Assembly: GCA_013359125.1 (NCBI GenBank)
Contig: JABWCR010000018.1
Coordinates: 1-64,000 of the forward strand
Direction of reading: 5' to 3'
From: Armatimonadota bacterium
Lineage (GTDB): Bacteria > Armatimonadota > Fimbriimonadia > Fimbriimonadales > GBS-DC
Length of the DNA: 64,000 nt
How positions within the stretch are numbered: the stretch's first letter is position 1; every line of letters starts with the position of its first letter. Below are positions 22,624 through 23,424 of the stretch, one piece after another. Below the pieces are notes generated by a model, which was not told the origin of the DNA, made no database searches, and saw only the letters and a list, made by a program, of their open reading frames with translations. The position numbers were made by a program, and so were the translations under genes.

Positions 22624-22693
22624 GCGTCAAGAAAGGACGAAGATGTGGAACAATAGACATTGGGTATCCTTGTCTAACGCTTAGCCAGCGACC

Positions 22694-22709
22694 CGCCCGT
22701 AATCGGGCG
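22694..22709 (+). repeat. Short palindrome upstream of the TnpA/sigma-4 fusion gene
   Basis: A 6-bp perfect stem CGCCCG-TAAT-CGGGCG, ending 13 nt before the ATG at 22723. There is no following T-run, so it is not an obvious terminator. It could be an operator or an RNA hairpin; REP-like palindromes are known partners of TnpA-family proteins, but that link is only suggestive. Confidence 0.45.
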
Positions 22710-22722
22710 AGCCCAGAGCAAA

Positions 22723-23424
22723 ATGGGAGATTGTAGCAAGAACATGAAGACAGACGCTGATGCGCCTCGATTGGAATCGGAGGTCGGACGATCTCCGTAT
22801 GCCAAATCGCGCACGTCCGGCTCGTGCGTCTACCGAATTTACTACTCCTTCATTTTCTATGCTCGCGGTCGCAAGCCCATCCTCACCGATCCGCTTTCCT
22901 CTCGACTTAGGGAGTTCGTCGGCAACATCTGCGAGAAGTACGAGTACGAGCTGATCTCCTTCAATCAAAAGGATAACCAGGTTATTGTGATCTTGGGGGC
23001 AAAGCCGGTCAACAATCCGTCCGACATCGTCGGAAACCTCAAGCGGGGCGTCGCGCATTTGGCTTTCGAGGCTTTTCCCGAGCTTGAAAGTCAGCTGGGC
23101 AAGCGAAGTCTCTGGGCCGAAGGCTATCTGGTCGACACCATCAATTGGCGGCAATTAGAAGGCATCGTCGCCGCACGGGGCGGGGGCGAGCCAACGACCA
23201 AGTCGCCGCTGAAGAACGCGCAGGTCGAGGCATTGGTCGATAAGCTTCCATTGCCTCATCGAGAGGTCGTCGGTCTGCTTTATGGGCTGAAAGGCGAGAA
23301 GCCGCGCACGCACGAACAGGTTGCGTTGGCGCTCGGGATGACCCACGAAGAAGTCGTCAACGCCGAGCGGGCTGGATTGGCCAAGTTGAAGGCTTGGGCA
23401 AAGAACGGACCCGTCCACGATTGA
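22723..23424 (+). CDS. Fusion of an inactive IS200/IS605 TnpA-like domain with a sigma-70 region 4 helix-turn-helix
   Basis: A 233-aa protein. Residues about 35-151 follow the Y1 (HUH) transposase fold: YRIYYSFIFYARGRKPILT, ELISFNQKDNQVIVIL, LKRGVAHLAFEAFPEL and SLWAEGYLVDTI. The HUH motif (normally H-x-H) is Q86-V-I88 and no catalytic Tyr is evident in the last helix, so nicking activity is probably lost. Residues about 174-226 match sigma region 4: LPHREVVGLLYGLKG, EQVALALGMTHEEV and AERAGLAKLKAW. There are no flanking transposon ends. ATG 22744 is an alternative start. A DNA-binding regulator derived from a transposase is the best guess; function is undetermined. Confidence 0.75.
   Translation: MGDCSKNMKTDADAPRLESEVGRSPYAKSRTSGSCVYRIYYSFIFYARGRKPILTDPLSSRLREFVGNICEKYEYELISFNQKDNQVIVILGAKPVNNPSDIVGNLKRGVAHLAFEAFPELESQLGKRSLWAEGYLVDTINWRQLEGIVAARGGGEPTTKSPLKNAQVEALVDKLPLPHREVVGLLYGLKGEKPRTHEQVALALGMTHEEVVNAERAGLAKLKAWAKNGPVHD

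Follow-up and report, generated by a model that had tools for sequence, protein, structure and literature searches.

IS200/IS605 transposases of the TnpA type, class/subclass 1.1 of Quentin et al. 2018 (PMC6006769), are Y1 proteins, represented by the solved ISDra2 TnpA (2xm3) and ISHp608 TnpA (2a6m). Domesticated Y1 transposases kept by the host outside insertion sequences are known as TnpA-REP or RAYT proteins (PMC6006769, PMC8266576). Some Y1 subclasses bear C-terminal helix-turn-helix domains (Bac_DnaA_C, HTH_23/28 in subclass 2.1), and the host-kept Y1 proteins with a C-terminal helix-turn-helix in published surveys have an intact HUH–Tyr set; Y1 proteins without the core motifs were set aside as probably non-functional (PMC6006769).

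Herein we describe a gene in a 64,000-nucleotide stretch of an Armatimonadota bacterium (contig JABWCR010000018.1, "the window") whose product joins a Y1 domain to a sigma-70 region-4-like domain (Table 1). The fusion protein shares the Y1 fold and profile with IS200/IS605 TnpA and retains the W-x-x-GY motif, but it is devoid of the HUH histidines, the tyrosine and the metal-binding glutamine, carries the additional C-terminal domain, occurs in single copy and was not found associated with IS ends. Like RAYTs, it is a host-retained Y1 protein that is not part of an IS. Conversely, RAYTs retain HUH and Tyr whereas the fusion does not; the fusion, which ends in a sigma region 4-like domain, is nearer to TnpA-IS200, and neither hairpin families nor REP-like partner hairpins rose above background in the 464 kb sampled from the window genome. 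A comparison of mode of action can be made with the TldR-type regulators, which are nuclease-dead, RNA-guided relatives of TnpB. In both cases a transposon nuclease has gone catalytically dead and been kept by the host, albeit TldR derives from TnpB, has an unrelated fold and is guided by RNA, whereas the fusion derives from TnpA and an Rfam search beside its gene found no known RNA family. A dead Y1–sigma4 fusion was not found described in the open-access literature, in agreement with the first-pass annotation, made from the window sequence alone, which knew of no system of this kind.

Table 1. Coordinates of the features discussed. Positions are those of the window unless a locus (L) is named.
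Feature	Position	Strand	Remarks
Fusion-protein gene	22723..23424	+	ORF, 233 aa; alternative start 22744
Y1 (IS200/IS605 TnpA) domain, aa 35-146	22825..23160	+	PF01797 match, TnpA fold
Sigma-70 region-4-like domain, aa 173-223	23239..23391	+	PF04545, profile and Foldseek matches
Degenerate HUH motif Q86-V87-I88 (H-U-H in active TnpA)	22978..22986	+	Alignment with active TnpAs, ISDra2
Promoter-like -10 element GGGTATCCT	22662..22670	+	Conserved in upstream alignment
Stem-loop CGCCCG-TAAT-CGGGCG	22694..22709	+	Between promoter-like element and start codon
Other Y1_Tnp gene, window genome	L002 1147-1779	+	
Other Y1_Tnp gene, window genome	L003 1241-1855	-	
Other Y1_Tnp gene, window genome	L004 1279-1836	-	
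GCTCGCGGGGACGCTCGCCCTCCCGG 38-bp unit	L231 12807-13073	-	Contig C13, window genome; also L225, L228, L219, L223

Features of the two halves

The Y1_Tnp profile (PF01797) matched the window protein with 68.4 bits (E 8e-19, cut-off 23) and the "IS200/IS605 family transposase" profile NF033573 with 74.9 bits (cut-off 55), which bears out the first-pass reading of the N-terminal half as Y1 transposase-like. Sigma70_r4 (PF04545) gave 23.6 bits (E 3.7e-5), marginally below its cut-off of 24.1 in the window protein alone; both profiles matched 17/17 aligned family members, with a best region 4 E-value of 2.1e-9. Moreover, the family profile matched solved TnpA structures as well as solved housekeeping sigma factors (SigA/RpoD region 4 chains). 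Translation possibly starts at the second ATG, as about 15 residues precede a conserved SP(F/Y) motif in most orthologs, while the first ATG would put 23 residues ahead of it in the window protein.

The AlphaFold model of the fusion protein shows a mean pLDDT of 75.8, with values of 70 to 93 over most of each domain. According to this model the N-terminal half adopts the TnpA fold, and ISDra2 TnpA is its nearest structural match: the best Foldseek hits were 2xma/2xm3, with an rmsd of 1.5 Å over 105 columns for 2xm3. The first-pass annotation had made its claim depend on structure prediction giving this fold, which it did. The C-terminal part matched SigA region 4 in beta-flap chimeras. The placement of the two domains relative to each other is uncertain (pTM 0.54), and the linker (residues 153–161) has a pLDDT below 50.

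The active-site residues were compared with active TnpAs of the same order and ISDra2, leaving out L008 and L070. The DHVHLL stretch of active TnpAs reads NQVIVI in the window protein and NQVHLI in most orthologs. The first HUH histidine is Gln in 18/18 family members, and the second is replaced in the window protein, L035, L040, L044 and L049. The position of the catalytic tyrosine is occupied by Trp in most orthologs and by Phe in L035, it is lost in the window protein, and Tyr is kept in none. The metal-ligand glutamine downstream is likewise replaced, by Arg in most orthologs, and the Y-x3-Q (YxxxQ) motif is absent from the window protein. The earlier observation of Gln86 and Ile88 in place of the HUH histidines and of a missing tyrosine was hereby confirmed, and an ortholog with intact residues, which together with transposon ends would have contradicted the first-pass reading, was not encountered among the full-length members. 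As judged from sequence, the nuclease chemistry has been lost, with His replaced by Gln and both Tyr and the metal-ligand Gln gone.

In the C-terminal half, comparison with sigma factors of the same phylum reveals that the region 4.1 core LxxxExxVxxLxxGL is kept in nearly all family members, and the GL-x-GE turn is conserved in 18/18; the helix-turn-helix fold is shared with SigA/RpoD as well. Regions 2–3 are missing and the equivalents of R584, R586, R588 and K593 are mostly replaced (these positions of region 4.2, and E585 and Q589 below, are given in E. coli RpoD numbering). The Arg of the sigma-factor "LRxGL" is Leu in 18/18 fusion proteins, and the reading helix TRERIRQIE has turned into KPEEVQQIA or similar. 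R584 is substituted by Pro, His, Ala or Val, R586 by Glu or Asp (18/18), and K593 by Glu, Asp or Ala, while R588 is mostly lost; among the -35-reading residues, the equivalents of E585 and Q589 alone are mostly kept. The mean net charge of the reading helix is 0 in the fusion proteins compared to +4 in the sigma factors of the phylum. With the basic -35-reading residues lost, a role as a sigma-like -35 reader appears unlikely, and the lost charge weakens the case for DNA binding by this half. The first-pass annotation had called it a good sigma region 4, which holds for profile and fold; as a plain reader of promoter DNA it does not stand, given the consistent replacement of the -35-reading residues.

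These data bear directly on a sigma- or anti-sigma-like factor, in which the region-4-like domain would dock to the RNA polymerase beta-flap or act as a competitor of sigma region 4. Nucleic-acid targeting would fall to the dead TnpA, and transcription would be redirected or blocked at particular sites. The conserved 4.1 core and turn, the Foldseek match to the beta-flap chimeras and the match of the family profile to housekeeping sigma factors are in line with such a role, which we nevertheless regard as unlikely in view of the Arg to Leu exchange and the loss of basic residues in region 4.2. In addition, profile searches returned region 4 only and no match to sigma region 2 (core binding, -10 melting), so that promoter opening by the fusion protein is not expected.

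Upstream elements and gene neighbourhood

Nearly all orthologs carry GGGTATACT about 42 bp ahead of the start, the window counterpart in the upstream alignment being GGGTATCCT. In the family loci (L072–L088) the motif was counted 23 times, compared to one count for the reversed control. Because other genes are preceded by GGGTATACT too, it was rejected as a specific operator of the fusion gene, and it appears to be a general extended -10 promoter-like element of the lineage. The stem-loop is a rare one for its surroundings, with 0.02 expected by chance per window, albeit absent from the orthologs in the upstream alignment and not repeated in the genome, where a single match with two mismatches was found. 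Its most probable readings are an incidental sequence and a local hairpin in the 5'UTR, and the suggestion that this palindrome is the target of the protein was not sustained. The upstream data also touch on an ordinary DNA-binding regulator, whose region-4-like helix-turn-helix would bind a double-stranded operator with altered specificity while the Y1 half serves for dimerisation only. The retained fold and hydrophobic core would suit this role, and the TnpA fold is naturally dimeric, as established for IS608/ISDra2. With a net charge of the recognition helix around zero and no conserved palindrome for autoregulation found upstream of the gene, we consider it improbable.

In the window genome, the fusion gene follows pyrR-pyrB and precedes a VKOR/DsbA gene and hisS, standing alone between pyrB and the VKOR/DsbA gene. 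An IS context was not found for this single-copy gene among housekeeping genes with its unique, unconserved upstream stem-loop, and the first-pass statement that transposon ends are not seen and that the neighbours are housekeeping genes was borne out. A defence-system identity was rejected as PADLOC gave no match. The neighbourhood, one of the checks proposed, differs between the window genome, the genome G216 and the other genera, so that it gives no strong context clue.

In four genera, the fusion stop and the start of hinT overlap, the two genes sharing 4 or 8 bp in 15/15 members that could be tested, and a DinG-like helicase gene lies upstream of the fusion gene in many members of these hinT-linked genera (hinT and DinG were assigned by eye). 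The overlap is what speaks for an RNA-binding protein or a partner in translation or RNA metabolism, tied to HinT in the four genera via translational coupling. As hinT is located elsewhere in the window genome and in G216, the link is either not ancestral or not required, and an operon overlap by itself says little on function; we rate this role as quite improbable.

Several repeats and further Y1 genes were observed alongside. The window genome encodes three other Y1_Tnp proteins of about 185–210 aa, which are RAYT-like by eye and without an evident region 4 domain. Also in the window genome, a 38-bp unit with GCTCGCGGGGACGCTCGCCCTCCCGG recurs both as a tandem array and at dispersed sites; it may be a mobile or REP-like repeat. 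In the relative G206 (L199–L218), many dispersed hairpins of the types CCCCTCTCCC..GGGAGAGGGG and TGCTGAAGC..GCTTCAGCA occur at about four times the shuffled rate, and this class is absent from the sampled window genome. The same relative contains overlapping, CRISPR-repeat-like 16-mers around GTAGCATTCACCCCCAAGGGTGGGTGCTAATTGAAAC (about 75 copies in the sampled DNA).

Distribution and selection

All 18 genomes of the family to which the window belongs (order Fimbriimonadales, six genera) carry a single ortholog, at full length except for contig-edge cases. Family orthologs score 301–448 bits, compared to 57.7 bits for the best match elsewhere in the 291 Armatimonadota genomes, which covers Y1 only. 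The other 273 genomes searched yielded no fusion ortholog, and matches there cover a single domain. Two conserved peptide patterns, run against 84,980 bacterial and archaeal species, returned full-length relatives in genomes and MAGs of the same family only, including Bacterium HR15, Armatimonadetes bacterium DC and Fimbriimonadales KatS3mg016/018, while the other listed matches were essentially the region 4 part alone. Beyond Armatimonadota, independent Y1–sigma4 fusions are excluded by this pattern scan only, which distant ones could escape. Among phages, plasmids and viral contigs, matches fall mainly on the Y1 part; most of the annotated plasmid matches shown are IS200/IS605 tnpA. None of these relatives is full-length, hence the idea that the fusion itself came from a mobile element or phage was rejected.

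The median pairwise dN/dS is 0.116 overall, 0.091 for Y1 and 0.083 for region 4 (29 ortholog pairs with dS < 1.2). Strong purifying selection acts on both domains (dN/dS ~0.09), and the conservation of the gene proposed as a check was found throughout the family. In 15 genomes, distances between fusion proteins track those of the neighbouring hinT (Mantel r 0.89), which partly reflects linkage since hinT is a linked gene; vertical maintenance of the fusion gene in the family is likely. If the gene were a functionless chance fusion or the remnant of a decaying transposase, the loss of all catalytic residues would be accounted for. This explanation is already contradicted by the low dN/dS in both domains and by intact full-length proteins across the six genera, leaving it a negligible probability, and pseudogene decay was rejected on the dN/dS values. 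Each half has lost residues of its parent's best-known activity and both are conserved nonetheless, which argues against simple -35 recognition and favours protein contact or altered nucleic-acid binding.

Proposed function and significance

In summary, domestication of a catalytically dead TnpA, as put forward in the first-pass annotation, is well supported by the lost catalysis, the TnpA fold, the absent transposon context, family-wide conservation and purifying selection. We infer a nucleic-acid-binding or regulatory function, together with its target, its partner and dimerisation. In our main reading, to which we assign a probability of about 45%, the domesticated protein has kept the TnpA fold to bind structured nucleic acid without cleaving it, and its sigma4-like domain serves as a module for interaction or as an altered helix-turn-helix. 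An ancestor of the Fimbriimonadales family would have captured an IS200/IS605-type TnpA, which became joined to a region-4-like domain related to that of housekeeping sigma factors. The fused TnpA would then have lost its nuclease chemistry and been kept in single copy under strong purifying selection. The TnpA-fold half, probably still a dimer, would bind folded single-stranded nucleic acid (a DNA hairpin or RNA stem-loop) without cutting, whereas the sigma4-like half, with its 4.1 core kept, would act as a protein-interaction or altered helix-turn-helix module that plausibly contacts RNA polymerase. The whole fusion may thus serve as a regulatory or nucleic-acid-maintenance factor. More specifically, albeit with considerable doubt, it could represent a lineage-specific class of transcription factor in which a hairpin of DNA or RNA is recognised by the dead TnpA and this recognition is coupled to RNA polymerase through the rewired region 4. 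If true, such a regulator, guided by hairpins and derived from a Y1 transposase, would be the TnpA counterpart of the TnpB-derived regulators.

What sets the case apart is a Y1 protein without any catalytic residues that is conserved family-wide and joined to a rewired sigma4-like domain; RAYTs, the domesticated Y1 transposases known so far, retain the chemistry. Should this function be confirmed, it would show that the TnpA fold may be retained for binding alone, and the fusion protein would be a concrete bacterial example of a transposase exapted for regulation.
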